Shown here piece after piece: positions 571 through 15,259 of a stretch of 15,259 nucleotides of DNA. Position 1 is the first letter of the stretch; each line of letters starts with the position of its first letter. Source of the DNA: Pseudomonadota bacterium (GTDB lineage: Bacteria > Pseudomonadota > Alphaproteobacteria > Micropepsales > Micropepsaceae); assembly GCA_021808875.1 (NCBI GenBank), contig JAKBAU010000047.1:1-15259 (forward strand), given 5' to 3'. The notes beneath the pieces were generated by a model, which worked only from the letters and a program-made list of their open reading frames with translations, searched no databases and was not told the DNA's origin. A program made the translations under genes and the position numbers.

Positions 571-585
571 ATGTGGGAAAAGTCC

Positions 586-825
586 ATGACAGCGATGACC
601 ACTGATGACAAGCTGATCTATATGGCAAACCAGATTGCCGATTTCTTTGTTGCGCAGGGGGAGGCCCGCGCGGTACCCGGAATCGCAAACCACATTGACC
701 AGTTCTGGACAGCGCGTATGCGCGCGCAGTTACTGGAGCTCTCAAAGAAGAGTGACTCGAGGCTGGTGCCGCTGGTGAGGCAGGCCTTGCCGCTGATCGC
801 CAGGTCTGCGGAAGGGATTAGATGA
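586..825 (+). CDS. fdsD: NAD-dependent formate dehydrogenase delta subunit (FdsD)
   Basis: A 79-residue protein matching the small delta subunit of soluble, molybdenum-dependent, NAD-linked formate dehydrogenase (FdsGBA-D type). The family pattern is visible: DKLIYMANQIADFF near the N-terminus, then HIDQFW and RMRAQLLEL, then VRQALPLI near the C-terminus, at the usual length of about 65-85 residues. The delta subunit is cytoplasmic and its exact role (assembly or stability) is poorly defined. ATG 586 was chosen because GGGA at 575-578 lies 7 bases upstream; ATG 571 and ATG 595 are also in frame. Normally this gene closes an operon with fdsG, fdsB, fdsA and fdhD, but none is recognisable in the 585 bases upstream, which is odd. 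Family call confident, start less so. Confidence 0.82.
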   Translation: MTAMTTDDKLIYMANQIADFFVAQGEARAVPGIANHIDQFWTARMRAQLLELSKKSDSRLVPLVRQALPLIARSAEGIR

Positions 826-3172: not shown

Positions 3173-4885
3173 CTACGCCTTTCGGCCACGCACGAGCTGT
3201 CCTGGTAATGCTCCTGTAGCCTGTCCACTTCGGCTTATGATTTTTCCGGTCTTAATCGTCGCAACGTACCCTTCCGCCTCCTGCATAAGACGGCGTGCGC
3301 CCGTCGGTAAGTCATAGGCCATGTAGGGAACGCGTAGACATAAGTGTTCGAAATTGATTACGTTGATATCCGCCAGATGGCCGGGACGCAAAATGCCGCG
3401 ATCCGATAGTCCCACGGCTTCGGCCGTGTCTTTCGTTTGCCAACGGATAACTTGGGCGAGATCAAGCTTTTCGCCACGAGTACGATCTCGGCACCAATGC
3501 GTGAGCATAAAGGTTGGCAGCCCAGCGTCGCAGACCAAGCCAACATGCGCGCCACCGTCAGATAGGCCGCTAAGAGTGTTCGGATTGGTCAGCATAGATC
3601 TAACGTTGTCGAGGTTGCCGTCAGCGTAGTTCAACATAGGAAAATAGAGAAACGCGCGCCCTTCATTGGCAAGAAGCGCCTCATATACAAGTTCATCGGG
3701 ATTGATGCCCAATTTCTGCGCCTTAGCGCCGAGGCTATCTTTGGGGTCTGGTTCATAGTTTGGCGGATCGCCAAGCTCGAAGAACTTGTGATATGCGCCG
3801 GTAAGGGAATTGATCAGAGGGTGACTGTCTTGCGGCGCTTGGGAGATCAACCGCGCCCGGAAATCCGGATCTCGCATGGCCGCAACCTTCGCGGCCAAAG
3901 GCAGGTCGGTGATCTCGCGAAACGCGGACCTGCTTATGAAGGGGTGCGCCGAGCCCTGTAGCCCCAGCATGAGGCCGATCGCTCGGCCTGCGACCTGCCC
4001 TTTTATCGGACATCCGGCGGCAACCGCAGCATCGAGGCGCAGCATTAGCTCCCGCCACTGGTCTGGCGCCTGGTCCTGCTGAACCATCGAGAAGCTGAGT
4101 GGTCGCCCGGAGATTTTTGTTAAGTCCCGCATAAGCTGAAATTCTTCGTCGATTGAACTGAAGTCACTTACCAATTGGAATACGCCCCATCCCGCGTCAG
4201 CCAGCCCCTGGGCGATCGCTGCCAGCTCGTTACGCGCTGCTCCGAATGTGGGCGTCAAGTCGCCATCGGCGGTGCGGTGGACCATGGTTCGGGTGGTGGA
4301 AACCCCCAATGCACCTGCCTCGATGGCCTCTCGAGTCAGGTTGCGCATTATGCGTGCTTCTTCAGGCGTAGCAGCTTCGCGGTTGGCGCCGCGCTTACCC
4401 ATGGCATATACGCGCAAGGCGCCATGGGGTATCTGAACGGCTACATCAATGTCATGAGGCAAGCGGTCGATAGCATCCATGAATTGGGGGAAGCTCTCCC
4501 AATCCCATGATAAGCCCTCATGCAGAGCCGCTCCGGGAATGTCCTCGACGCCTTCCATCAGCCGGATCAGTGTATCGCGGTCTTGTGGGCGTACTGGGGC
4601 AAATCCAACACCACAGTTCCCGGTCACCACAGTTGTAACGCCTAGCGTCGACGACGGAGTCACGCGACTGTCCCAGGTGATCTGGCCATCATAATGCGTG
4701 TGAATGTCGACCCAGCCCGGCGTAACCATAAATCCACGCGCGTCGATTTCTTCGCGCCCGCACGATGTCACCTGGCCAATCTCGACGATCAGTCCTGCAT
4801 CCACTGAAATATCCGCTACGATGGGGTCTGTGCCAGTGCCGTCATAGATCAAGCCATCGCGGATCACTAAATCGACCATCTTCAT
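3173..4885 (-). CDS. D-aminoacylase-like amidohydrolase (N-acyl-D-amino-acid deacylase family)
   Basis: A 570-residue member of the amidohydrolase superfamily, N-acyl-D-amino-acid deacylase branch, expected in the cytoplasm. It would hydrolyse an amide, releasing a carboxylic acid and a D-amino acid or analogue. The metal motif IHTHYDG gives His62 and His64, GNCGVGFAP gives Cys91 (a metal ligand in D-aminoacylase), and LSDGGAHVG gives the catalytic Asp443; GILRPGHLADINVI near the C-terminus is the typical composite-sheet strand. However, the stretch where true D-aminoacylases carry two further metal-binding histidines reads TPTFGAARNE and FSMVQQDQAP, without them, so exact chemistry is uncertain. 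ATG 4885 has AAGGA 5 bases upstream. It follows the VOC gene after 158 bp and probably belongs to the same transcript from the SMP-30 promoter. Confidence 0.85.
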   Translation of the reverse strand: MKMVDLVIRDGLIYDGTGTDPIVADISVDAGLIVEIGQVTSCGREEIDARGFMVTPGWVDIHTHYDGQITWDSRVTPSSTLGVTTVVTGNCGVGFAPVRPQDRDTLIRLMEGVEDIPGAALHEGLSWDWESFPQFMDAIDRLPHDIDVAVQIPHGALRVYAMGKRGANREAATPEEARIMRNLTREAIEAGALGVSTTRTMVHRTADGDLTPTFGAARNELAAIAQGLADAGWGVFQLVSDFSSIDEEFQLMRDLTKISGRPLSFSMVQQDQAPDQWRELMLRLDAAVAAGCPIKGQVAGRAIGLMLGLQGSAHPFISRSAFREITDLPLAAKVAAMRDPDFRARLISQAPQDSHPLINSLTGAYHKFFELGDPPNYEPDPKDSLGAKAQKLGINPDELVYEALLANEGRAFLYFPMLNYADGNLDNVRSMLTNPNTLSGLSDGGAHVGLVCDAGLPTFMLTHWCRDRTRGEKLDLAQVIRWQTKDTAEAVGLSDRGILRPGHLADINVINFEHLCLRVPYMAYDLPTGARRLMQEAEGYVATIKTGKIISRSGQATGALPGQLVRGRKA

Positions 4886-5043: not shown

Positions 5044-5568
5044 TTAAGAACTCTCTGGTGTAGAGCAGCTGCCGGAGGATTTGGTCGTTTTGTCCGCGCG
5101 GTTACGCAGGAGCGGTGCCAGGTCGCCGAGGGTCTTGAAGGATCCCGGGAATTCAATCAGTTCAAATACATTTCCGTCCGGGTCGGTGATGAAGAAGAAT
5201 TGTGCTCCCTGGAATACCGTGATCGACTCTGTGGAAGTATGCCCTGCCACCTTTAGCCGTTGAAACGCGCTCCGAGCGTCAGGAATGGAGAAAGATAGGC
5301 AGGGGTGGCCCGCAGGTTTGTCGGTTTTAATACGGCGCACGCGGTGGTGGGGGATAAACGCGGTTTGGGCGAGCTCGATAGCAAAGCCGCCAATGAGACC
5401 CTTAACATTCGGCTGATGGCGGTCATCTCGGTTGTCCTGGAAAATGTCCAGCCCCAGGACGCTTTCATAGAAGGAGATGGAGCGCGCCAAGTCTGACACT
5501 TCCAACGCCAGGTGCGAGACGGCATTGACGACGACTAAGGATTGCACACCTGATGTTGCTTTGGGCAT
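5044..5568 (-). CDS. VOC-family (glyoxalase/dioxygenase fold) protein
   Basis: A 174-residue vicinal-oxygen-chelate protein. The three metal ligands of the fold are placed normally: His19 in VSHLALEV, His88 in AGHPCLSF and Glu136 in TDPDGNVFELIEF. VOC proteins include glyoxalases, epimerases, extradiol dioxygenases and resistance proteins; single-domain proteins of this length are hard to assign, and the substrate here is unknown. ATG 5568 is preferred because AGGA lies 8 bases upstream (plus-strand 5577-5580). ATG 5598 is also in frame and abuts the SMP-30 stop as TGAATG, which would suggest translational coupling. Either way it is co-transcribed with the SMP-30 gene. The C-terminal 30 residues, rich in Ser, Thr and Lys, look unstructured. 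Confidence 0.85.
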   Translation of the reverse strand: MPKATSGVQSLVVVNAVSHLALEVSDLARSISFYESVLGLDIFQDNRDDRHQPNVKGLIGGFAIELAQTAFIPHHRVRRIKTDKPAGHPCLSFSIPDARSAFQRLKVAGHTSTESITVFQGAQFFFITDPDGNVFELIEFPGSFKTLGDLAPLLRNRADKTTKSSGSCSTPESS

Positions 5569-5598
5569 TGGAGAGTTCCTATTCGCAGCGATAGGCAT

Positions 5599-6450
5599 TC
5601 AAGGAAGGCCCGCGCCCGGCACATCGACTTCGACGCTTAGGAGTCGGGCCGTAGGGTGGGTTCGACATAATGTGGGATCGGTGGAATCGGAGGTACAGAC
5701 ATAAAGGGTAAGTCGATCAGGACCCCCGAGCATGCAGGCAATGGCTTGTTGCTCAGTCTGGATTACATCGAGGACCTCTCCACCCTCGGCGATCCGCAAC
5801 AATTCGTGGCTAGGTGGTGAGGCGACCCAGATCGCTCCCTCTCTGTCCAGGCAGATACCATCGGGCAAGGCTCGCTCCGGCAGCGTCGCCCAATCGCGGC
5901 GATTGGACAGTTCCCCTCGCGCTCCTATGTCAAAGGCGGTGAGTTTGCGCCGTCCGCTTTCCGCAACGATGAAGGTTTTGCCGTCCGGGGTAATTACCGA
6001 CCCGTTGGGGAAGAACAGATCGTCGGCTGCCTGGCTAACCACGCCGGTTGCTGTTACGCGAGCCAGTTTCGCGAGCTTAAATGTCCCCGGCGCTTCCAGA
6101 GAGAAGCCGAAATTTCCGACATAGGCATCGCCGTTGGCCGCGACCACCATGTCATTGGCGTGCCAGCTGGCGATCAGGGCCAAGTCCGCATGTATGGCAA
6201 ACCGGCCATCCCGTTCCTGCCGGAGCACCTTTCGGTCATGCATAGAGACAACTAGTAATCGACCGTCGGGCAGCCAGCCGAGGCCCGAAACTGGGCTCGC
6301 GAACGTTGCCACCACATCGAGGAAGCCCGAGGGGCGCCACACCACGATCCGATTGGCGTGGATATCCGCGAGGTAGAGGCCGTCCGCGCGCCAGCGGGGG
6401 GACTCGCCGAAGGCGAGGTCTGAGACGAGGGTCTTCACGGTGCGCGTCAT
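5599..6450 (-). CDS. SMP-30/gluconolactonase/LRE-family lactonase
   Basis: A 283-residue six-bladed beta-propeller of the SMP-30/gluconolactonase family, normal in length, with no signal peptide, so probably cytoplasmic. The family hydrolyses lactones with a divalent metal. Expected ligands are visible: Glu16 in FGESPRW, Asn99 in WHANDMVV, Asn149 in FPNGSVITPDG, and Asp197 in LPDGICLDREG. It is the first gene of a minus-strand transcript running into the VOC gene and probably the amidohydrolase gene, with an operator palindrome at 6490-6509, 39 bases upstream of the start codon. In context it may open a lactone made from the imported substrate or from a hydroxy-oxo-acid intermediate. Sugar lactones cannot be excluded. 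No strong ribosome site is seen; AGGA lies 12 bases upstream of the start. Confidence 0.87.
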   Translation of the reverse strand: MTRTVKTLVSDLAFGESPRWRADGLYLADIHANRIVVWRPSGFLDVVATFASPVSGLGWLPDGRLLVVSMHDRKVLRQERDGRFAIHADLALIASWHANDMVVAANGDAYVGNFGFSLEAPGTFKLAKLARVTATGVVSQAADDLFFPNGSVITPDGKTFIVAESGRRKLTAFDIGARGELSNRRDWATLPERALPDGICLDREGAIWVASPPSHELLRIAEGGEVLDVIQTEQQAIACMLGGPDRLTLYVCTSDSTDPTLCRTHPTARLLSVEVDVPGAGLP

Positions 6451-6489: not shown

Positions 6490-6509
6490 ACTATAGCAAT
6501 AACTATATT
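6490..6509. promoter_or_regulatory. operator copy A (upstream of SMP-30 gene)
   Basis: ACTATAG-CAATAA-CTATATT: the right arm is a perfect consensus half and the left arm has one mismatch to AATATAG. It lies 39 bp before the SMP-30 start. TTGTCA on the minus strand (plus 6528-6533) could serve as a -35, putting the site over the downstream promoter part. One of four copies in this window; probable binding site of the TetR protein encoded at 9508-10284. Confidence 0.65.
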
Positions 6510-6599
6510 TATGTAAAGTTAGTCTGGTGACAAATTGACGAAAAATCTGCCGTATTATCGTAAAATCAATAATAAGTTGGTTGACGGACATGGTATCAT

Positions 6600-6619
6600 A
6601 ATATAGTAAAAAGTATAAT
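6600..6619. promoter_or_regulatory. operator copy B (upstream of deaminase gene)
   Basis: AATATAG-TAAAAA-GTATAAT: perfect left arm, right arm with two mismatches to CTATATT. TTGACG at 6581-6586 lies 13 bp upstream as a possible -35, and the deaminase ATG is 41 bp downstream, so binding here should block transcription. Its centre is 110 bp from that of copy A, so each divergent promoter has its own site. Confidence 0.6.
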
Positions 6620-6660
6620 TATTGAGCAAGCCCTGGTGATATATCCGCTTCGGAGTGCAA

Positions 6661-7965
6661 ATGCCCCCCTTCGCTCCAAGATTCCCGGAATTGCCGCTCG
6701 ATCCCAGCGAGAAAGGCGTCCCGGGCAATGCCGGTGTCGTCCGCCTCGCGGATGTTGGTGCGAAGGGCTGGAATGTTCTGCGTGAGGATCTGCCTTTGCC
6801 AGTGGCGGTTCTCAAGCAGTCGGCGCTGGTTCACAACAGCACGTGGATGACGGCTTTTCTTGGCCTTTCGGGGGCCCGGCTCGCGCCGCATGGCAAGACT
6901 AGCATGGCGCCAGGGCTTTTCGATCTGCAGCTTACGGATGGTGCCTGGGCGATCACGCTCGCCACACCACACCAACTTCAGGTGGCCCGGCGCTTTGGCT
7001 ATGCGCGGATCGTGTTGGCCAATCAGCTTGTAGGACGAAGTGCCACCATTTGGGTGATGGAGGAGTTGAAGCGCGATCCCGAGTTTGAATTCTACTGCCT
7101 TGTCGATTCAGTCGATAATGTACGTCAGCTCGCGAGTATCGCGCGATCTCTGGGGCTTGATCGGCCGCTGCGCGTACTTGTGGAGATCGGCTATGCTGGT
7201 GGACGCACCGGTTGTCGTTCGGTTGCCCAAGGCCTGGAGCTGGCGCGGGAGGTTGCTCGCCATGCTGACGTGCTGGCGCTCTCTGGGGTCGAAGGTTTCG
7301 AGGGGTTGATCCGAGAGCCGACGGAAGCCGGAACTGTCGCCAAGGTAGAGGCCTTTGCCGAGCAGGTCGTAGCGCTCGCGCAAGCCTGTGCCGTCGAGGA
7401 TCTGTTCGCTAAAGGTTTGGTCCTTTTCAGTGCCGGCGGCTCCGCCTTCTATGATATCGTCGCCAGCAGATTGACCCGAATTCGCTTGCGGCAGGAGAGT
7501 TTAGTCTTGCTCCGAGCCGGGTGTTATCTTACCCACGACTCGATCATGTATACGTATCTTTTTGCGCAGCTGATGGCGCGGGAGCCGCAGTTGGCACGCC
7601 TTGGAGAAGGGCTCAAGCCTGCCCTAGAAGTGTGGGCCTACGTCCAATCTGTGCCGGAGATTGGCAAGGCAATTGTGGCGATGGGTAAGCGCGACGTCTC
7701 CTACGACCACATGCCTGTCCCATTGGTCTGGTGCCGCCCGGGCGACGGGCCGACTGTGCCTTGTGCAGTGCCCGCCGGACATAAAGTCATTAGGCTCGAC
7801 GATCAGCACGCCTGGCTTGAGATCCCCAGCGACACGCCCTGGCGGGTCGGCGACCTGGTTGGCTTTGGGATATCCCATCCCTGTCTGACTTTCGACAAGT
7901 GGCGTATTCTTCATGTCGTGAACGATGCCTACACGGTCACAGGATCGCTGCGCACCTACTTTTGA
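6661..7965 (+). CDS. PLP-dependent D-amino-acid deaminase (D-serine dehydratase-like, DSD fold)
   Basis: A 434-residue protein with an N-terminal alanine-racemase-like PLP barrel and a C-terminal D-serine-dehydratase-like domain. LAPHGKT (Lys79) matches the Schiff-base lysine motif. GISHPCLTFDKWR supplies His406 and Cys408, equivalent to the zinc-binding His-x-Cys of eukaryotic-type D-serine dehydratase, where the metal helps remove the beta-substituent. The family deaminates D-serine, D-threonine or beta-hydroxy D-amino acids to 2-oxo acids through an enamine/imine, the species RidA clears. ATG 6661 has GGAG 5 bases upstream; an in-frame GTG at 6655 overlaps that site and is less likely. It is the first gene of a plus-strand pair with the aldolase, under operator copy B. 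Substrate not determined; a bacterial 'amino acid deaminase' label would also fit. Confidence 0.87.
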   Translation: MPPFAPRFPELPLDPSEKGVPGNAGVVRLADVGAKGWNVLREDLPLPVAVLKQSALVHNSTWMTAFLGLSGARLAPHGKTSMAPGLFDLQLTDGAWAITLATPHQLQVARRFGYARIVLANQLVGRSATIWVMEELKRDPEFEFYCLVDSVDNVRQLASIARSLGLDRPLRVLVEIGYAGGRTGCRSVAQGLELAREVARHADVLALSGVEGFEGLIREPTEAGTVAKVEAFAEQVVALAQACAVEDLFAKGLVLFSAGGSAFYDIVASRLTRIRLRQESLVLLRAGCYLTHDSIMYTYLFAQLMAREPQLARLGEGLKPALEVWAYVQSVPEIGKAIVAMGKRDVSYDHMPVPLVWCRPGDGPTVPCAVPAGHKVIRLDDQHAWLEIPSDTPWRVGDLVGFGISHPCLTFDKWRILHVVNDAYTVTGSLRTYF

Positions 7966-8032
7966 CGGTCTCCGGTGCCGAGCCGAATGCACCCATTACT
8001 CCAATTGTCCCAGAAAGGTGGAAGAACCGCTG

Positions 8033-8809
8033 ATGCCGAACAAGCTGAGAGCCAAACTGGAAGCCGGCGAGGTCTGTGTGAATGGGTGGTCGATTATCCC
8101 ATGTCCCTTCACTGCCGAGATATTTTCTCAAATGGGCTGGGATAGCGTCACCATCGATATTCAGCACGGCCTACATGACTACAGATCTGCGGTTAGCTGC
8201 ATTCAGGCGATGCAGGCCCATCCGGTGACGCCGCTTGTGCGCGTACCCTGGAACGAACCGGGTATCATAGGCAAGGTGCTCGACGCCGGTGCCTGGGGCA
8301 TCATATGCCCTATGGTCAATACGGTCGCGGAAGCTCGTGCCTTGGTCAAGGCGAGCCTCTATCCCCCGATGGGCGAACGTTCCAATGGTCCGGTCCGCGC
8401 AGCGGCTTATGGTGGTCGCACTCCCTATCAGGAGATCGCCAACGACCAGGTTCTTATCCTGCCGCAGATCGAAACCCGCGATGCGGTCGACAATCTCGAC
8501 GCGATCCTGGATGTCCCGGGCATCAGTGGCATCTATGTTGGCCCCAGCGACCTCGGGTTCTCGATGGGCATGCCTCCGATTCTAGACCGGGAGGAACCTG
8601 AGGTTTTCGTAATTTATGAGCGCGTTCTTGTGGCGACCAAATCGCGTGGAAAATTCGCCGGCATCCATAATGCGACACCTGCCTATGGTGCTCGTATGGC
8701 GCTGATGGGGTTTCAATTCGTAACGGTTTCAAGTGATGGAGCCTTGCTTGGCCACGGGGCCCGTCAGGCGATCAACGCCACCCGTCGGGCGATCGGCGGA
8801 GGTCCTTAA
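8033..8809 (+). CDS. HpcH/HpaI-family class II aldolase
   Basis: A 258-residue pyruvate aldolase of the HpcH/HpaI family, which reversibly cleaves 4-hydroxy-2-oxo acids to pyruvate (or a relative) and an aldehyde using a divalent metal. Key residues align well with E. coli HpaI: His45 (IDIQHGLHDY), Arg70 (PLVRVPWNEP), Glu147 (LPQIETRDA) and Asp173 (VGPSDLGFS) match its base, pyruvate-binding and metal residues; RSNGPVRAAAYGG is the usual loop. ATG 8033 is chosen because GGAAG lies 8 bases upstream and the conserved fold starts there; upstream codons overlap the end of the deaminase gene. It follows that gene by 67 bp and probably shares its transcript, so its substrate is likely the 2-oxo acid made by deamination. 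Ends in a perfect palindrome over the stop codon. Confidence 0.9.
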   Translation: MPNKLRAKLEAGEVCVNGWSIIPCPFTAEIFSQMGWDSVTIDIQHGLHDYRSAVSCIQAMQAHPVTPLVRVPWNEPGIIGKVLDAGAWGIICPMVNTVAEARALVKASLYPPMGERSNGPVRAAAYGGRTPYQEIANDQVLILPQIETRDAVDNLDAILDVPGISGIYVGPSDLGFSMGMPPILDREEPEVFVIYERVLVATKSRGKFAGIHNATPAYGARMALMGFQFVTVSSDGALLGHGARQAINATRRAIGGGP

Positions 8810-8814
8810 GGACC
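8801..8814. repeat. perfect 14-bp palindrome over the aldolase stop codon
   Basis: GGTCCTTAAGGACC is self-complementary and contains the TAA stop (8807-8809). It sits in the 44-bp gap between the convergent aldolase and ridA genes. With no loop and no T-run it is a poor intrinsic terminator and may be chance. Confidence 0.3.
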
Positions 8815-8853
8815 GACATAGATCTTAATCTTGGATACCACGTGCCCGGCCGA

Positions 8854-9333
8854 CTAATCCCGAATTGCCACCACCAGATCGACCTCCACCGTGATCTGGC
8901 CAGGCAGCGAACTCATGCCTACGGCTGAGCGGGCATGCCGGCCGATCTCCCGTCCGAAGACTTCGATAAGCAGGTCCGAGCAGCCGTTGATCACGATCGG
9001 GTGCGCCATAAAGTCAGGCGTCGCGTTAACCATCCCAAACAATTTTAGAACCTGAGAGACCTTGTCCAGGCCGACTGCATCCTCGATAGCCGCCAGCAGG
9101 TTCAATCCCGCTAAGCGGGCGTGTTTGTAAGCCGACTCGATCGATACTTCGCCGCCAACCTTGCCGCTGAAATAGCCGGATGAATGCACAGGTCCCTGGC
9201 CCGATAAGTAGAGTAGGGACCCTGACCGTACGGCTGGAGCAAAATTAGCCACAGTGGGTGACAGGGCAGGCAAGCTAATTCCGAGTGCCGTTAGGCGGTC
9301 ATATGGCGTGGGTGACGAATTGTTGGAGGGCAT
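8854..9333 (-). CDS. RidA-family reactive enamine/imine deaminase
   Basis: A 159-residue Rid (YjgF/YER057c/UK114) protein, slightly longer than the usual 125-155. Rid proteins hydrolyse 2-aminoacrylate-type enamines and imines released by PLP enzymes, giving the 2-oxo acid and ammonia. The catalytic arginine is present in GRHARSAVG (Arg135), and Glu150 in TVEVDLVVAI lies 15 residues later, the same spacing as Arg105 and Glu120 of E. coli RidA, so it should be active. The LSGQGP motif near residue 45 is typical. ATG 9333 has only a weak GAGTGA upstream. Operator copy C lies about 160 bp upstream, at the end of tetR. Pairing with the deaminase gene suggests it hydrolyses that enzyme's product. 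Confidence 0.88.
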   Translation of the reverse strand: MPSNNSSPTPYDRLTALGISLPALSPTVANFAPAVRSGSLLYLSGQGPVHSSGYFSGKVGGEVSIESAYKHARLAGLNLLAAIEDAVGLDKVSQVLKLFGMVNATPDFMAHPIVINGCSDLLIEVFGREIGRHARSAVGMSSLPGQITVEVDLVVAIRD

Positions 9334-9489
9334 GGGTTCACTCGGTCAGATTGCAAGATCCGCCACAGCGCGCGCGTCCTGCCTCAACGGAATGGATAGC
9401 TAACGGCTGCCACTGATTGGTCGGCATCTCTTGCTGATGATGCACGCTAAATTGCTTCACTTCCGAACAAGATGTGGCATGCAAAAATA

Positions 9490-9509
9490 AATATAGCAAG
9501 TACTATATT
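9490..9509. promoter_or_regulatory. operator copy C (ridA promoter, overlapping the tetR stop)
   Basis: AATATAG-CAAGTA-CTATATT: both 7-bp arms are perfect. The site overlaps the TAA stop of tetR (plus 9508-9510) and lies 157-176 bp upstream of the ridA start, both genes being on the minus strand. It implies a promoter for ridA separate from that of tetR, or a roadblock to read-through from tetR. Confidence 0.65.
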
Positions 9510-10284
9510 ACTTCCACTCCTCGTCTCTGAGGGAGATCGCAAGAATGCGTGCAGCCTCGCGGAGCAGGATGGCCTTGGGCACTCGGTCTTCCTCCAAGGC
9601 AAGTTCGTCCACCGCCCAACCAAACTCGGAGCGTATGCGCAGTCGGCACCATAGCACGGTCGGATCGATCTCGGGCAGCAGGCGGCGATAGAAAGCGAAC
9701 ATCTGGTCAGTGCTTTGGCGCTGCGACTCCAGGCGTACATGGGCAAGATTGGGAAGTGCTCTCAAGGCCCGCATCGTCCAGATCGCACCAGGTTCGCTGT
9801 GGGTGATTTCGGTGGCAATCGCGAACCATTCTTCTAGAGCCTCAACGGCCTTGTCGGGGCTGGACCAGGCTCCCCCCTTGAACAACCAGGCGGCATAGGC
9901 GTCGTTCTGGCGTTTGAGAAGACGACGAGCCATTACCTCGAGGATTTCGTATTTATCATCAAAATAATGATAGAACGCTGGCGGAGAAAGACTGGCGCGC
10001 GCACAGATGGCATTGGTGGTCAAGCGCTCGAAACCTACTTCGGCCAGTAACTCGCCCGTGGCAGCGATGAGACGCTCGTAAGTTTGGAGCGGCTTACCGC
10101 CCGATGGGGGCTCCCGCAGGTCAGCCTTCTTCTTATGCGAACGCGCTTTTGCTGATTCAGCTCTTTTGCGCGGGGTTTCCGTCCTTTTGGAAGTCACTTT
10201 GGCCCTGACCACGTCAACGAGGCGCTCATAGTACGGCTTAATCCGGGTTGATTCCACGAATGCTATCTCTGCGCTTTGGACCAT
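9508..10284 (-). CDS. TetR-family transcriptional regulator
   Basis: A 258-residue TetR regulator, probably the repressor of the surrounding catabolic cluster. The DNA-binding domain is at about residues 66-115, with LTTNAICARASLSPPAFYHYF forming the helix-turn-helix and DKYEILEVMARR the following helix; the remaining 140 residues are the ligand/dimer domain. Unusual is a long basic arm before the domain: residues 28-55 are dense in Lys and Arg. ATG 10284 has GGAG 8 bases upstream, so the arm appears to be translated; a GTG at 10197 would give a shorter protein. Four near-identical palindromes in the promoters around it, including one beside its own promoter, are the likely binding sites. The ligand is presumably a pathway compound. 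Confidence 0.9.
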   Translation of the reverse strand: MVQSAEIAFVESTRIKPYYERLVDVVRAKVTSKRTETPRKRAESAKARSHKKKADLREPPSGGKPLQTYERLIAATGELLAEVGFERLTTNAICARASLSPPAFYHYFDDKYEILEVMARRLLKRQNDAYAAWLFKGGAWSSPDKAVEALEEWFAIATEITHSEPGAIWTMRALRALPNLAHVRLESQRQSTDQMFAFYRRLLPEIDPTVLWCRLRIRSEFGWAVDELALEEDRVPKAILLREAARILAISLRDEEWK

Positions 10285-10353
10285 TCAAGCCGCTCCGTCA
10301 TTGTCATCTGCTTCGTAGGAGACCTTGTCGCGCTCTAGGGTCAAAGTCCTTGC

Positions 10354-10387
10354 TTGACAACGAGCGGAATATAGTAAAAGCTATATT
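10354..10387. promoter_or_regulatory. promoter element and operator copy D (tetR / MFS intergenic)
   Basis: TTGACA at 10354-10359 is a consensus -35 for the MFS gene. Eight bases downstream is AATATAG-TAAAAG-CTATATT at 10368-10387, with both 7-bp arms perfect. The operator therefore overlaps the expected -10 region and lies between the starts of tetR (10284, minus) and the MFS gene (10453, plus), so it could repress both. Confidence 0.65.
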
Positions 10388-10452
10388 ATATACCTTGGCA
10401 CGACGGTCAGACTTCGGCCGCATGGCCATATTGGGGCCGCGAAGGGGCTGGC

Positions 10453-11682
10453 ATGGCGATCAACAAAATTGTCGAGCATTCGGCTGAGAAACTTGATCTC
10501 GATCACTGGATTGGGCCGAAACCGTCGCTACTTCAGATGAGCGCGGTTCTCGTCGTCGGTACGGTGGCATTGATCATCGCGGGCGTGCAGCCGTTGGTGC
10601 TGGGCGCACTAGTCGAAGAGCATCGCCTCTCCGCAATGGCGCTCGGTTGGACTGTGACCTCGGAATTTCTCGCCATGGGGCTTGGCGTGGGCCTGGCCGA
10701 AAGTCTGTTCGAGCCCGATCAACTAAGGCTGCGGGGCCTGATTGCTGCGGCGGTGCTCTTCGCAGCGAACATCGTTGCAACCGGGCAATCCGACGTCGGG
10801 ATAATAATCGCAAGAGGCGTGGCCGGCCTGGCGGAAGGTGTTTTGGGATGGATTGTGTCGCTAATGATCGCGCGCGCATCCACCCCGGCGCGGTTGAACG
10901 CTATCTTCCTGGTAGCACAGGGGGCGGCTCAGATCCTTTTTGCGGCAATTCTTCCGCTCACGCTTATGAAGACGCTCGGTGCCAATGGAGGGTTCTACGC
11001 TCTGGCGGGCGCCGCGATCGTTGGAGGATCTGCGCTCCTCGTTATACCTGATCGCATGATGCCCCTTCCGGTACTGCCGGATGAGTCCCGCCGAAGAAGT
11101 GGGGGAAAGCTCTCCCGCGCAGGACTTTTTAGCCTTGTCGCAGTGGTTCTACTCTATGCGTTCTTCATCGGGTTCTTCTCCTACCTGGCTCAACTTGCCG
11201 GCCAGGCCATGCTCGGTCCAGAGCAGGCAGGATTTGCCGTTGCCGCGGCCCTTGGGTCATCGATCATCGGATCAGGAGTGGCTGCAGCTGCCGCTAAGCG
11301 CATTTCCTACTATGCCGTCTACTTAGTTTGTCTGCCGGTAAACCTAATGGTGTTGGCGGCGCTCGCTACACTTCCGACTCAACCCGTATTCATGGCGCTG
11401 AGCGTCGTGTTCGGCTTCTTTTGGGGCTTCTTCATGCCGTTTCAGCTACCGCTTGTCATCGAGGCCGATCCTACACGAAGGGCTGCCATTTTTGTTCCAG
11501 GCGCAATGGCGCTGGGCGCTGCGGGTGGACCCTTGCTCTGCTCCTTCTTTGTTAACCGTGTCGACTCGCGTGGAGTTCTCCTGGTCTCGGGCCTCTGTTT
11601 GCTAGCCTCGTTTATCATCGCCACAGTCCTTCATCTTCGGCTTGCTGTCGATCGACGGAGATTGGTCGAAGGCTGCCCCTAA
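10453..11682 (+). CDS. major facilitator superfamily (MFS) transporter
   Basis: A 409-residue inner-membrane protein with about 11-12 hydrophobic segments in two halves: the first six between about residues 30 and 198, then a charged cytoplasmic loop (about 199-222, DESRRRSGGKLSR), then the second half to about residue 395. Size and layout are those of an MFS secondary transporter. The usual motif A is not clear, so the subfamily is uncertain. ATG 10453 has AAGGGG 5 bases upstream. It is divergent from tetR with operator copy D between, the common arrangement for a repressor and its transporter. In context it probably imports the cluster's substrate, though efflux cannot be excluded. The SDR gene follows by 93 bp on the same strand. 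Confidence 0.87.
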   Translation: MAINKIVEHSAEKLDLDHWIGPKPSLLQMSAVLVVGTVALIIAGVQPLVLGALVEEHRLSAMALGWTVTSEFLAMGLGVGLAESLFEPDQLRLRGLIAAAVLFAANIVATGQSDVGIIIARGVAGLAEGVLGWIVSLMIARASTPARLNAIFLVAQGAAQILFAAILPLTLMKTLGANGGFYALAGAAIVGGSALLVIPDRMMPLPVLPDESRRRSGGKLSRAGLFSLVAVVLLYAFFIGFFSYLAQLAGQAMLGPEQAGFAVAAALGSSIIGSGVAAAAAKRISYYAVYLVCLPVNLMVLAALATLPTQPVFMALSVVFGFFWGFFMPFQLPLVIEADPTRRAAIFVPGAMALGAAGGPLLCSFFVNRVDSRGVLLVSGLCLLASFIIATVLHLRLAVDRRRLVEGCP

Positions 11683-11775
11683 AATCCATTCGTTCGTCAC
11701 ATGGATGACCAAGTCGCGCTTCAACTCGGCAGTTGCACGCGAATAGGCCACAGTCATCACACCGGAGAAACCACG

Positions 11776-12597
11776 ATGAAGCCTAAAACCATCAGGACCT
11801 ACCTGATTACCGGTGCCGGAAGCGGGATCGGCGCTGCGTTGGCAACAAAGCTCGCACATGCAGGACAGAACGTGATGCTGGCCGACATTAATGTTGCTGC
11901 GGCCCAGGCGGTTGCAAAACTCCTGCAGCCTTATGCAGATGTTGTGGAGCTCGATATCCGTGATCCGGAGGATTGGGAACGAGCTTTCGACAGCACGATT
12001 GCTCGTTTTGGGAGGATCGACGTTCTCATCAACAATGCAGGAATCGTTCGGACCGGCTTGGCGCGAAATGTCGCCATCGCCGATCATCAGGCCACCATCG
12101 ACACGAATTTCATGGGGCCACTCACCGGCATGATCGGAGCGTTGCGCCGCTTTAGGCAACTGGGTTCCGGACATCTGGTCACGATTTGCAGCATGACGTC
12201 CTTCTTGCCGTTTCCCGGCCTGGCCAGCTATGGCGCGTCAAAGCACGCGTTGCGCGCGTTTCATCACGGCTTCGCGCTTGAAGAACGTCACGGCACCATC
12301 GATTTCACCATCGTCCATCCGACGGCCACAGAAACCCCGATGCTGGCGCAGGAAGCCGCAGACGACGATGCGGCGATGGCATTTTTTGCCGAGAGCGTCA
12401 CTGCCGAAGAGGTTGCCGATACGGTGATCAAGGCTATCCGGCGCAAAGCGATAGAGGTCTGTATGCCCCAATCCTCCGCGCGCATGATTAAATCGTTGGG
12501 TACCGATCCCGCGCGACTTCGAGACTATGCCGACTATATGGAGAAGCGAGGGCGCGAAGGTCAGGCAGCCCGGCGCGCCAAAGCTGGCGGCACTTGA
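11776..12597 (+). CDS. short-chain dehydrogenase/reductase (SDR), probably NAD-dependent
   Basis: A 273-residue classical SDR. The cofactor motif TGAGSGIG is at residues 12-19, Asp37 at the end of the second strand (LADIN) points to NAD rather than NADP, NNAG is at 86-89, and the catalytic set is Ser139, Tyr152 and Lys156 (YGASK). The frame is open from 11701, but ATG 11776 has GGAGA 7 bases upstream and fits the family start. Following the MFS gene on the same strand, it is probably in its transcript, under operator copy D. It could oxidise an alcohol or reduce an aldehyde or ketone made in the pathway; no substrate can be named. Confidence 0.88.
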   Translation: MKPKTIRTYLITGAGSGIGAALATKLAHAGQNVMLADINVAAAQAVAKLLQPYADVVELDIRDPEDWERAFDSTIARFGRIDVLINNAGIVRTGLARNVAIADHQATIDTNFMGPLTGMIGALRRFRQLGSGHLVTICSMTSFLPFPGLASYGASKHALRAFHHGFALEERHGTIDFTIVHPTATETPMLAQEAADDDAAMAFFAESVTAEEVADTVIKAIRRKAIEVCMPQSSARMIKSLGTDPARLRDYADYMEKRGREGQAARRAKAGGT

Positions 12598-13058: not shown

Positions 13059-13486
13059 TCACGAAGCGGGATGTATCGGTTCAGGACGCAGTGCTGCGAT
13101 GCGTACCTCGCGGCCGTACTGCCGCGGCGAGCGGCCGCATGACGTGCTTGAAGGTCAAGCTGAAGGATTTTTGCGATTCGTAACCCAGCGAAGAACTAAT
13201 TTCGGCCAGCGACTGACGCGACGTGGCCAGAAGTTCCGCAGCTTGCAACATGCGCCGCCGCTTCAGACAGGCCATCGACGACAGGTCGCGAGTTTTTTGA
13301 ATTGCAACGTAAAGACGGTTCGCGATGCTACCGCTTCCTCGGCCAGGCTCTCGACCGTCCACCGATGACCGAGGGCATGATCCATTGAAACGAGCGCCGC
13401 CCGTAACCTTGGGTCGGCGAGGATGAACCGCGAAGCTGTCCCTTCACCCCGCCCGGCATTCGGGGTTCAAAGAGGTAGAGGGTCAT
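13059..13486 (-). pseudogene. AraC-family regulator fragment with frameshifts
   Basis: The minus strand encodes a C-terminal AraC DNA-binding domain in three frames. One frame reads ADPRLRAALVSMDH and WTVESLAEEAVASRTVF, the first helix-turn-helix, starting at about 13427. The next reads RRRMLQAAELLAT and LAEISSSLGYESQKSFSLTF, the second helix-turn-helix. A third resumes as GRSPRQYGREVRIAAL and ends at TGA 13059-13061. Each junction needs an indel: one near 13275-13300, one near 13135-13145. Upstream, MTLYLFEPRMPGG (ATG 13486) may be a piece of the effector domain in yet another frame, but most of that domain is absent. As written it cannot make a functional regulator; it may once have controlled the adjacent monooxygenase. 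Sequencing error is possible but would have to occur at least twice. Confidence 0.72.
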
Positions 13487-13522: not shown

Positions 13523-15259
13523 TTAGCGGAATTCCAGGCCCTCAAACTGGCCCGAATTCCGCCAACCCTCGAGATAGCGGAAGTAGGCGGTGGCACCCTG
13601 GGGATAGCCGATGGCATAGCGCGCCGCGGGACCGGGATCCTGGCCTTCATTGTTGTAATACCCGGGCGTGCAATCCTGCGAGCCGATCATGCGCCCCGGT
13701 CCGGTGAGGAGGAGTTCGACCCAGGCCTCCTGTGCGGCTTTGCTCACTTCGACTTCCCGGGCACCGCGCCTTTGCGCTTCGGCGATGATCATGGCGACCG
13801 TCTTTCCCCCCTCGGTAAGATTGTGCGGTACATTCGAGATCAGGTTGGCGCCCTGCGTTGGCTGGACGAAGAACAGGTTTGGAAAGCCGTGCACATGGGT
13901 GCCGTGCATCGAGCGCATCCCTTCGGCCCAGGCCTCAGACAGTCTGAGGCCATGGCGGCCGGTGAGATCGAACCCGGCGCGGCCGGTAAACTCGGTGCCG
14001 ACCTCGAAGCCGCTTGCATAAATGATGCAGTCGACCTCGTATTCGACGCCATTGGCGACGACGCCCGTCCTGGTAATGCGCTCGACGCCCTTGCCGTCGG
14101 TGTCGACCAGCGTGGTCGAGGGCTCGTTGAAGGCCTGCAGATATTCGTCATGGAAGCAGGGGCGTTTGCACAGCTGGCGATACCAGGCCTTGAGCTTCTG
14201 TGCGGCTTCCGGGTCGCGCACGATGGCATCCACGCGGGCGCGGATTTCCTCCATCTTCTCAAAATCGGCATCCTCAAAGGCCGCCCACATGGCCCCGGGG
14301 TTACGCTGCTCGGGCGGTAGCGTAGCGATGCGCGCACGGATGCGGCGGGAGAGATCGGTCCAGCCGTCCTGCACCAGATCCTCGTCGGCGCCGCCGCCGG
14401 CCTGGTTCTCCGTGAAATTCTCCAGCCAGCGCTGCTGCCATCCAGGTGTCGCGATATTGCTGAACCAGTCTGGATCGATGGGCTCATTGGCTCGCACGTC
14501 GACGGAGGAGGGCGTACGCTGGAAGACGTAGAGCTTCTGGGCCGCACGGGCGAGATGTGGCACGCATTGCACGGCTGTTGCGCCGGTGCCGATGATCGCG
14601 ACGCGCTTGTCCTTGAGCTTGTCGAGGGGCGCTCCATTGGGATCGCCGCCGGTATAGGCATAGTCCCACCGGCTGGTGTGGAAGCTGTGGCCCTCAAATT
14701 CTTCGATCCCGGGGATACCGGGCAGCTTCGGTACATGCAGGGGCCCAGTACCGACGCCGAGGAACTGCGCAGTAAAATTATCGCCGCGATTGGTTTTGAT
14801 ACACCAGGCCGCGAGGCTCTCATCCCAGCTGAGATCGGTGACCTCGGTGTGGAAGAGTGCGTTGCGGTAGAGCCCGAACTGCACGCCGATGCGCCTGCAC
14901 TGCGCCAGGATCTCCGGGGCGTGGGCGTATTTTTCCAATGGCCGGTGGCCGGTCTCTTCGAGCAGCGGCATATAGACCATCGAGGCGGTATCGCATTGGG
15001 CGCCGGGGTAGCGGTTCCAATACCAGGTGCCGCCAAAATCGCCGCCTTTCTCGATAATGCGCACATCCTCGATGCCGGCCTCGGCCACTCGCGCCCCGGT
15101 GACGAGGCCGGCAAAGCCGCCGCCAACGAAGGCGAAGGTGACGTGATCAGTCTTGGGCGTCCGTGGCTTCACCGGGACGTAAGGATCCTCGGCATAATGG
15201 GCGAAACGGTCCTTGAGGCGGATATATTGCGCATTGCCGTCGGGGCGCAGGCGCTTGTC
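13523..15259 (-). CDS. type I Baeyer-Villiger monooxygenase (FAD/NADPH), 5'-partial
   Basis: The visible 578 residues stay in frame to the right edge, so the start is outside the window; an internal GTG at 15172 is not the start, because the preceding residues (RLRPDGNAQYIRLKDRFAHY) match the N-terminal extension of long BVMOs. An FAD Rossmann motif (VGGGFAG) is followed by GGTWYWNRYPGAQCD. The BVMO fingerprint FxGxxxHxxxW is present as FEGHSFHTSRW, then the NADPH-binding IGTGATAVQ. It resembles the cyclopentadecanone or steroid monooxygenase branch. The enzyme inserts one oxygen of O2 next to a ketone, giving an ester or lactone. Substrate unknown. It runs in the same direction as the AraC remnant downstream of it and has no operator copy in view, so it is probably not part of the TetR regulon. 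Confidence 0.92.
   Translation of the reverse strand, partial: DKRLRPDGNAQYIRLKDRFAHYAEDPYVPVKPRTPKTDHVTFAFVGGGFAGLVTGARVAEAGIEDVRIIEKGGDFGGTWYWNRYPGAQCDTASMVYMPLLEETGHRPLEKYAHAPEILAQCRRIGVQFGLYRNALFHTEVTDLSWDESLAAWCIKTNRGDNFTAQFLGVGTGPLHVPKLPGIPGIEEFEGHSFHTSRWDYAYTGGDPNGAPLDKLKDKRVAIIGTGATAVQCVPHLARAAQKLYVFQRTPSSVDVRANEPIDPDWFSNIATPGWQQRWLENFTENQAGGGADEDLVQDGWTDLSRRIRARIATLPPEQRNPGAMWAAFEDADFEKMEEIRARVDAIVRDPEAAQKLKAWYRQLCKRPCFHDEYLQAFNEPSTTLVDTDGKGVERITRTGVVANGVEYEVDCIIYASGFEVGTEFTGRAGFDLTGRHGLRLSEAWAEGMRSMHGTHVHGFPNLFFVQPTQGANLISNVPHNLTEGGKTVAMIIAEAQRRGAREVEVSKAAQEAWVELLLTGPGRMIGSQDCTPGYYNNEGQDPGPAARYAIGYPQGATAYFRYLEGWRNSGQFEGLEFR

Follow-up and report, generated by a model that had tools for sequence, protein, structure and literature searches.

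A 15,259-nucleotide stretch of DNA from a Pseudomonadota bacterium of the family Micropepsaceae (contig JAKBAU010000047.1; the whole stretch is hereafter 'the window') contains four copies of a 20-bp palindrome, set amongst nine genes of which one encodes a TetR-family protein. The conserved part of the palindrome is the core ATAGY-N4-RCTAT, with weaker AAT/ATT ends completing the 20 bp. From the sequence comparisons set out below, the TetR-family protein whose gene lies at 9508-10284 very probably has the palindrome as its operator and is an autoregulated repressor of a catabolic regulon, with an operator that overlaps promoter elements. The genes of the block and the four palindromes are given here in order along the window, with gene annotation by Pfam, NCBIfam and PDB comparisons.

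3173..4885, minus strand: amidohydrolase of the D-aminoacylase type (PF07969, E 2.3e-50; best solved relatives are D-aminoacylases)
5044..5598, minus strand: VOC/glyoxalase-fold protein (PF00903, E 3.1e-14; kept in the islands of relatives)
5599..6450, minus strand: SMP-30/gluconolactonase-like protein (PF08450, E 6.2e-45; kept in the islands of relatives)
6490..6509, minus strand: putative operator copy 1, ACTATAGCAATAACTATATT, one arm mismatch; heads the SMP-30/VOC/(amidohydrolase) run
6600..6619, plus strand: putative operator copy 2, AATATAGTAAAAAGTATAAT, two arm mismatches; heads the deaminase/aldolase run
6655..7965, plus strand: pyridoxal phosphate (PLP)-dependent D-serine deaminase-like enzyme (PF14031, PF01168; best solved relative 3gwq, 'D-serine deaminase', E 1.4e-111)
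7925..8809, plus strand: HpcH/HpaI-type aldolase (PF03328, E 7.6e-32; TIGR02311 under its cut-off; matches solved HpcH/HpaI aldolases)
8854..9333, minus strand: RidA/YjgF-family protein (PF14588, PF01042)
9490..9509, minus strand: putative operator copy 3, AATATAGCAAGTACTATATT, perfect arms; between the tetR 3' end and ridA, overlapping the tetR stop codon
9508..10284, minus strand: TetR-family regulator (PF00440; 258 residues counted from the first ATG)
10368..10387, no strand assigned: putative operator copy 4, AATATAGTAAAAGCTATATT, perfect arms; in the divergent tetR-MFS intergenic region
10453..11682, plus strand: major facilitator superfamily (MFS) transporter (PF07690, E 4.3e-11)
11701..12597, plus strand: second short-chain dehydrogenase/reductase (SDR) (PF00106, E 1.4e-44; homology begins near residue 32; no site of its own in the window)

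The palindromes and the TetR-family protein

The original prediction, made from the letters of the window, had described the palindrome as AATATAG-YAANNR-CTATATT, and the four copies lie where it had placed them, with the arm mismatches that it had counted (1, 2, 0 and 0). Its statement that the window holds no further full copy also stands, as a search for AATATAG-N6-CTATATT with up to three mismatches returns exactly these four, against 26 matches in total, and at most one per shuffle, in 200 dinucleotide shuffles of the window. A matrix built from the four sites scores them at 29.1-32.3 and the next two positions of the window at 16.6 (position 6554) and 8.4, the top score in 30 shuffles being 15.1. 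The runner-up is a look-alike at 6554-6573, between copies 1 and 2 (ATTATCGTAAAATCAATAAT); it lies in AT-rich DNA, scores slightly above the best of the 30 shuffles and, read by eye, has three mismatches to the core. Since unrelated palindromes of the bare 7-6-7 form are common (32 places in the window with at most one arm mismatch), it is the shared arm, and not symmetry alone, that constitutes the evidence.

Copies 1 and 2 are centred 49.5 bp upstream of the SMP-30 ATG and 45.5 bp upstream of the deaminase GTG start respectively. Copy 4 lies in the 168-bp gap between tetR and the MFS gene, with its centre 93.5 bp upstream of the tetR ATG and 75.5 bp upstream of the MFS ATG. Because copy 3 overlaps the tetR stop codon, it is assigned to the ridA side and not to the tetR promoter, its centre being ~167 bp upstream of the ridA ATG. 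The earlier description of all four copies as lying at promoters is borne out only in part, given this place of copy 3 and the outcome of the promoter scan described below. Of the nine genes that had been linked into one unit, seven are each first or second in a run starting at a site, but the amidohydrolase gene, which is separated from the VOC gene by a gap of 158 bp, and the second SDR gene have no site of their own in the window. The SDR gene probably shares one transcript with the MFS gene. The true start of the aldolase is probably later than the called one, since homology begins at about residue 36.

The regulator itself has a TetR-type helix-turn-helix (PF00440, E 6.9e-13; 48.6 bits against a cut-off of 24). 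Its AlphaFold2 model is an all-helical TetR fold of ten helices (mean pLDDT 81.1), and the best Foldseek matches to this model, amongst those listed, are titled TetR-family or related transcriptional regulators, with E values down to 6.2e-06. The first ~50 residues are poorly modelled and most homology matches do not reach them, so translation may in fact begin further downstream. As is characteristic of the TetR/AcrR family, a palindromic candidate operator lies near the protein's own gene and is kept amongst its orthologues.

Conservation of the sites in relatives

Close orthologues of the TetR-family protein, with 63-78% identity, are present in five genomes of one family (G001, G183, G042, G013 and G033), from a sample of 249 genomes of which 69 have a match at E 1e-25; the family sampled is that of Caulobacter sp. 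UNC279MFTsu5.1, which has a relative with 79% identity. In a class-wide sample of 385 genomes, matches at E 1e-45 were found only in two genomes already known from the family search. A phage search with the protein gave no match, and comparison of the window with plasmids at the DNA level gave just two short matches.

Eight stretches from relatives were compared with the window, the window proteins being located in them by tblastn. The divergent SMP-30/deaminase region has two sites in 5/5 cases, counting the window here and below (4/4 relatives with this gene pair). Between tetR and ridA, a core within one mismatch is present in 6/6 cases (5/5 relatives), and between tetR and the MFS gene in 5/6 (4/5 relatives), the G033 site there having two mismatches to the core. 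In intergenic alignments the sites are kept and the flanking DNA has diverged. The second SDR gene has its own site in all five relatives' loci that hold a homologue of >50% identity, and amidohydrolase homologues (50-55%) lie downstream of an operator copy in 3/3 loci; in L053 and L056 a P450 gene comes first, and in L054 the distance from the site is ~1.3 kb. The homologues of both genes follow a copy of their own in relatives, where the regulon is wider than had been drawn. In Novosphingobium capsulatum (L017; TetR 53-55% identical) the gene order is rearranged, and cores within one mismatch are found at three operon starts: an exact core before VOC-RidA-deaminase-aldolase / SDR, and cores with one mismatch between TonB-SMP-30 and tetR and between tetR and the MFS gene.

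Unrelated copies scattered through the genome had been named in advance as the outcome that would tell against a local operator. A scan of the five relatives with orthologues, using the pattern WATATAGYN4RCTATATW with up to two mismatches, came out in favour of the prediction, as 30 of the 34 copies lie in the homologous island (8/9 in G001; 7/8 in each of G183, G013 and G042; 1/1 in G033). The G042 island copies are spread over two contigs, both with regulon genes. The clustering is tight in G183, where all seven copies with at most one mismatch fall at 3,278,806-3,294,395, a span of 15.6 kb out of a 4.66 Mb contig, around a tetR gene at 3,293,627-3,294,343. In 180 genomes of the family no TetR match reaches E 1e-25; fifteen of these (~49 Mb) were scanned and contain no copy with up to one mismatch and seven with up to two.

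The ninth copy in G001, outside the island, adjoins a TetR paralogue (37% identity). A locus on contig C77 of the same genome (L057, 1370-7902) holds a TetR paralogue (37-39%), an MFS-like gene and, nearby, three core copies with at most one mismatch, which suggests a paralogous regulon with a related operator.

In 26 exact-core sites, from the window and loci L050-L055, position 2 is A in 43 of 52 cases and position 3 is T in 45 of 52, both strands being counted and positions that the pattern itself fixes being set aside, and the centre is AT-rich and otherwise free. The central AA is therefore not a rule, and although YAANNR fits all four window copies, its AA is not kept in relatives. At 32 further loci with more distant TetR homologues, the core is found within one mismatch beside 22 and exactly beside nine; there are 30 core sites in the 19,600 nt beside tetR, against eight in the other 122,082 nt. 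Eleven permuted palindromes at the same loci gave 0-4/32 within one mismatch and 0/32 exact. The 32 loci are not independent, as several are closely related (for example L042-L046), and they include one contig (L040) that ends without upstream DNA. The recognition region [ST]PPA[FL]Y[HR]YF is found in all 35 TetR rows compared, and since these include loci without a site, the motif alone is no proof of a shared operator.

Promoter context and mode of control

Sequences resembling promoter elements accompany several of the sites. By eye, a TTGACA ends 8 nt ahead of the MFS operator in 5/5 loci. At the deaminase operator the distance is 13 nt, again in 5/5 with the window included, and the hexamer is of the TTG type (TTGAC, TTGAT or TTGCC). 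The deaminase site of L050 is followed after 14 nt by an ATG, with a ribosome-binding-like GGAGG between them. In a sigma-70-type scan, copy 1 was the only site with a promoter match (6517-6490, minus strand, TTTACA-16-TATAGT), where 0.6 are expected by chance in that region, and there was none in 9300-10500. The operator arm GCTATATC/T resembles GCTANAWC, given as the Caulobacter RpoD -10 consensus in PMC8144410. Reading this arm as an RpoD -10 box at a fixed distance from a -35 hexamer was considered and not adopted: from TTGACG/TTGACA/TTGATC to the GCTA box, by eye and with the hexamer taken as 7 nt, the distance is 16 nt at SMP-30 (two genomes), 19 at the MFS gene and 24 at the deaminase. 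Because the spacing varies, the claim is limited to overlap with promoter elements.

In the proposed mechanism, a TetR dimer would bind ATAGY-N4-RCTAT at the four sites, which would control the SMP-30-VOC-(amidohydrolase), deaminase-aldolase, ridA and divergent tetR / MFS-SDR transcripts. Bound at sites that overlap promoter elements, the protein should keep RNA polymerase out, and it would be released by an inducer, probably the pathway substrate or a compound formed early in its breakdown. The likeliest mode is steric repression with autoregulation, judging from site position and from what is known of TetR-family proteins, by analogy with which direct binding, repression, autoregulation and induction are all expected here.

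It is unlikely that the TetR protein, bound at the palindrome, acts at some promoters as an activator or a roadblock and not as a simple promoter-occluding repressor. The distance from TTG-hexamer to operator differs between the MFS gene (8 nt) and the deaminase (13 nt), ridA has its site ~167 bp upstream (measured to the centre), and AtrA is a precedent, being the one activating TetR-family protein amongst those tested according to PMC3511530. However, all sites but that of ridA have their centres 45-95 bp from a start and follow closely on -35-like hexamers, and the position of the L050 deaminase site near the ATG suits occlusion. A second alternative, that another regulator binds the palindrome and the palindrome merely travels with tetR, draws on LysR, AraC-like and Crp/Fnr genes near some loci and on one Novosphingobium copy at a Crp/Fnr gene (L017:2762). 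It is very improbable, given that a tetR orthologue is present in every genome whose island was examined, that the core adjoins TetR homologues on plasmids of Burkholderia and Yoonia, where the annotated neighbouring genes have little in common with those of the window, and that a 20-bp palindrome beside the protein's own gene suits a TetR dimer. That the palindrome is a promoter element of the GCTANAWC type or a chance AT-rich symmetry, as the likeness of its right arm to the RpoD -10 consensus (PMC8144410) and the AT-rich intergenic surroundings might suggest, is scarcely credible, since both arms are kept and a general element would be genome-wide rather than having 30 of 34 copies (up to two mismatches) in one island per genome.

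Several results weigh against the palindrome being the operator of an autoregulated repressor. The promoter scan overall is no better than chance. In the 15 control genomes, the seven pattern matches compare with 13 for a reversed control at up to two mismatches, and at up to three the five genomes give 71 for the pattern and 74 for the reversed control, with scattered matches at exactly three mismatches in all five; this control is not split by mismatch, and it is the best matches and the way they cluster that carry the signal, rather than the total. G033 has just one copy with up to two mismatches, and its tetR-MFS site is poor. The assignment of protein to site is not fully separated, because one copy adjoins a TetR paralogue. 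The two one-mismatch sites in N. capsulatum score 10.1 and 10.5 on the window matrix, under the 15.9 of the best of 30 shuffles, and so would not count alone. At ten of the 32 TetR-homologue loci (45-53% identity) the flanks examined are without a core site, although the recognition region is the same. The proposal of a local TetR repressor with a defined operator is supported by the clustering of the palindrome around this TetR and its gene set and by the kept positions of the sites.

The arrangement resembles the TetR-TetA paradigm in the helix-turn-helix family and fold, the divergent neighbour, the palindrome in the shared intergenic region and the MFS target. The 168-bp gap to this neighbour falls under the 200 bp described as predictive in PMC3511530. 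In contrast to TetR-TetA, which controls one transporter, the candidate regulon here is catabolic and has several sites, and the operator sequence is different. FadR of Bacillus, DesT and EthR, amongst the 50 Foldseek matches listed, share the all-helical fold; identity is 13-23% amongst the matches listed, so no ligand can be taken from them, and the gene set of the window is unlike one for fatty-acid degradation. PheR of Sphingobium was also compared and set aside, as it belongs to the IclR family and has another site (PMC13273656). Snowprint (PMC10858194) relies on a similar footprinting logic. No published description of this regulator or operator was found amongst the matches listed, which cover only part of the literature and are weak evidence of absence.

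Gene content of the regulon

The operator-led runs of relatives add TonB receptors, a DMFA2_C (dimethylformamidase-like) protein, a P450, a class II aldolase, a PF10118 protein and a lactone-oxidase-like protein. This wider gene set fits a system that takes up a compound from outside the cell and degrades it. The DMFA2_C proteins lie in operator-bearing islands (L050, 12426-14627; L054, 3147-5363), and there is none amongst the annotated open reading frames (ORFs) of the window. A D-aminoacylase-like or DMFA2_C hydrolase, a PLP-dependent deaminase-like enzyme with RidA, and an HpcH/HpaI aldolase together suggest amide hydrolysis, deamination and retro-aldol cleavage. With low confidence, the substrate may be an amide- or N-acyl-linked D-amino-acid-like compound that is broken down to a keto acid, which the aldolase then splits.

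Outside the block, the window has a formate dehydrogenase delta subunit, FdsD, near its left edge (571-825, plus strand; PF11390, E 8e-23), with no sign of regulon membership. A divergent LysR / SDR pair (1122-2895), whose called ORFs overlap at their starts, has no palindrome copy. A short ORF (13081-13362, minus strand) has only an AraC-type helix-turn-helix (PF12833) and is perhaps a remnant. A flavin monooxygenase (13523-15172, minus strand) has a Baeyer-Villiger look; its best NCBIfam match, pentalenolactone D synthase, reaches 677 of 1100 bits, far under the cut-off.

A broader generalization is conceivable, although we give it somewhat less than an even chance. A whole TetR subfamily with the recognition region [ST]PPA[FL]Y[HR]YF may share a single operator grammar, ATAGY-N4-RCTAT, in both alpha- and betaproteobacteria. 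Its best-conserved branch would control a catabolic pathway not yet described, in which a particular natural amide or N-acyl amino compound is handled by TonB-dependent uptake, entry through a P450 or an amide hydrolase, D-serine-deaminase-like and RidA chemistry, an HpcH/HpaI aldolase and SMP-30. As a regulatory principle the system is ordinary, and there is good support for a real TetR operator and regulon. For the pathway, it provides a defined regulator-operator pair and a conserved regulon boundary. The search for the substrate becomes testable through induction of the operator, which is also a candidate biosensor part.

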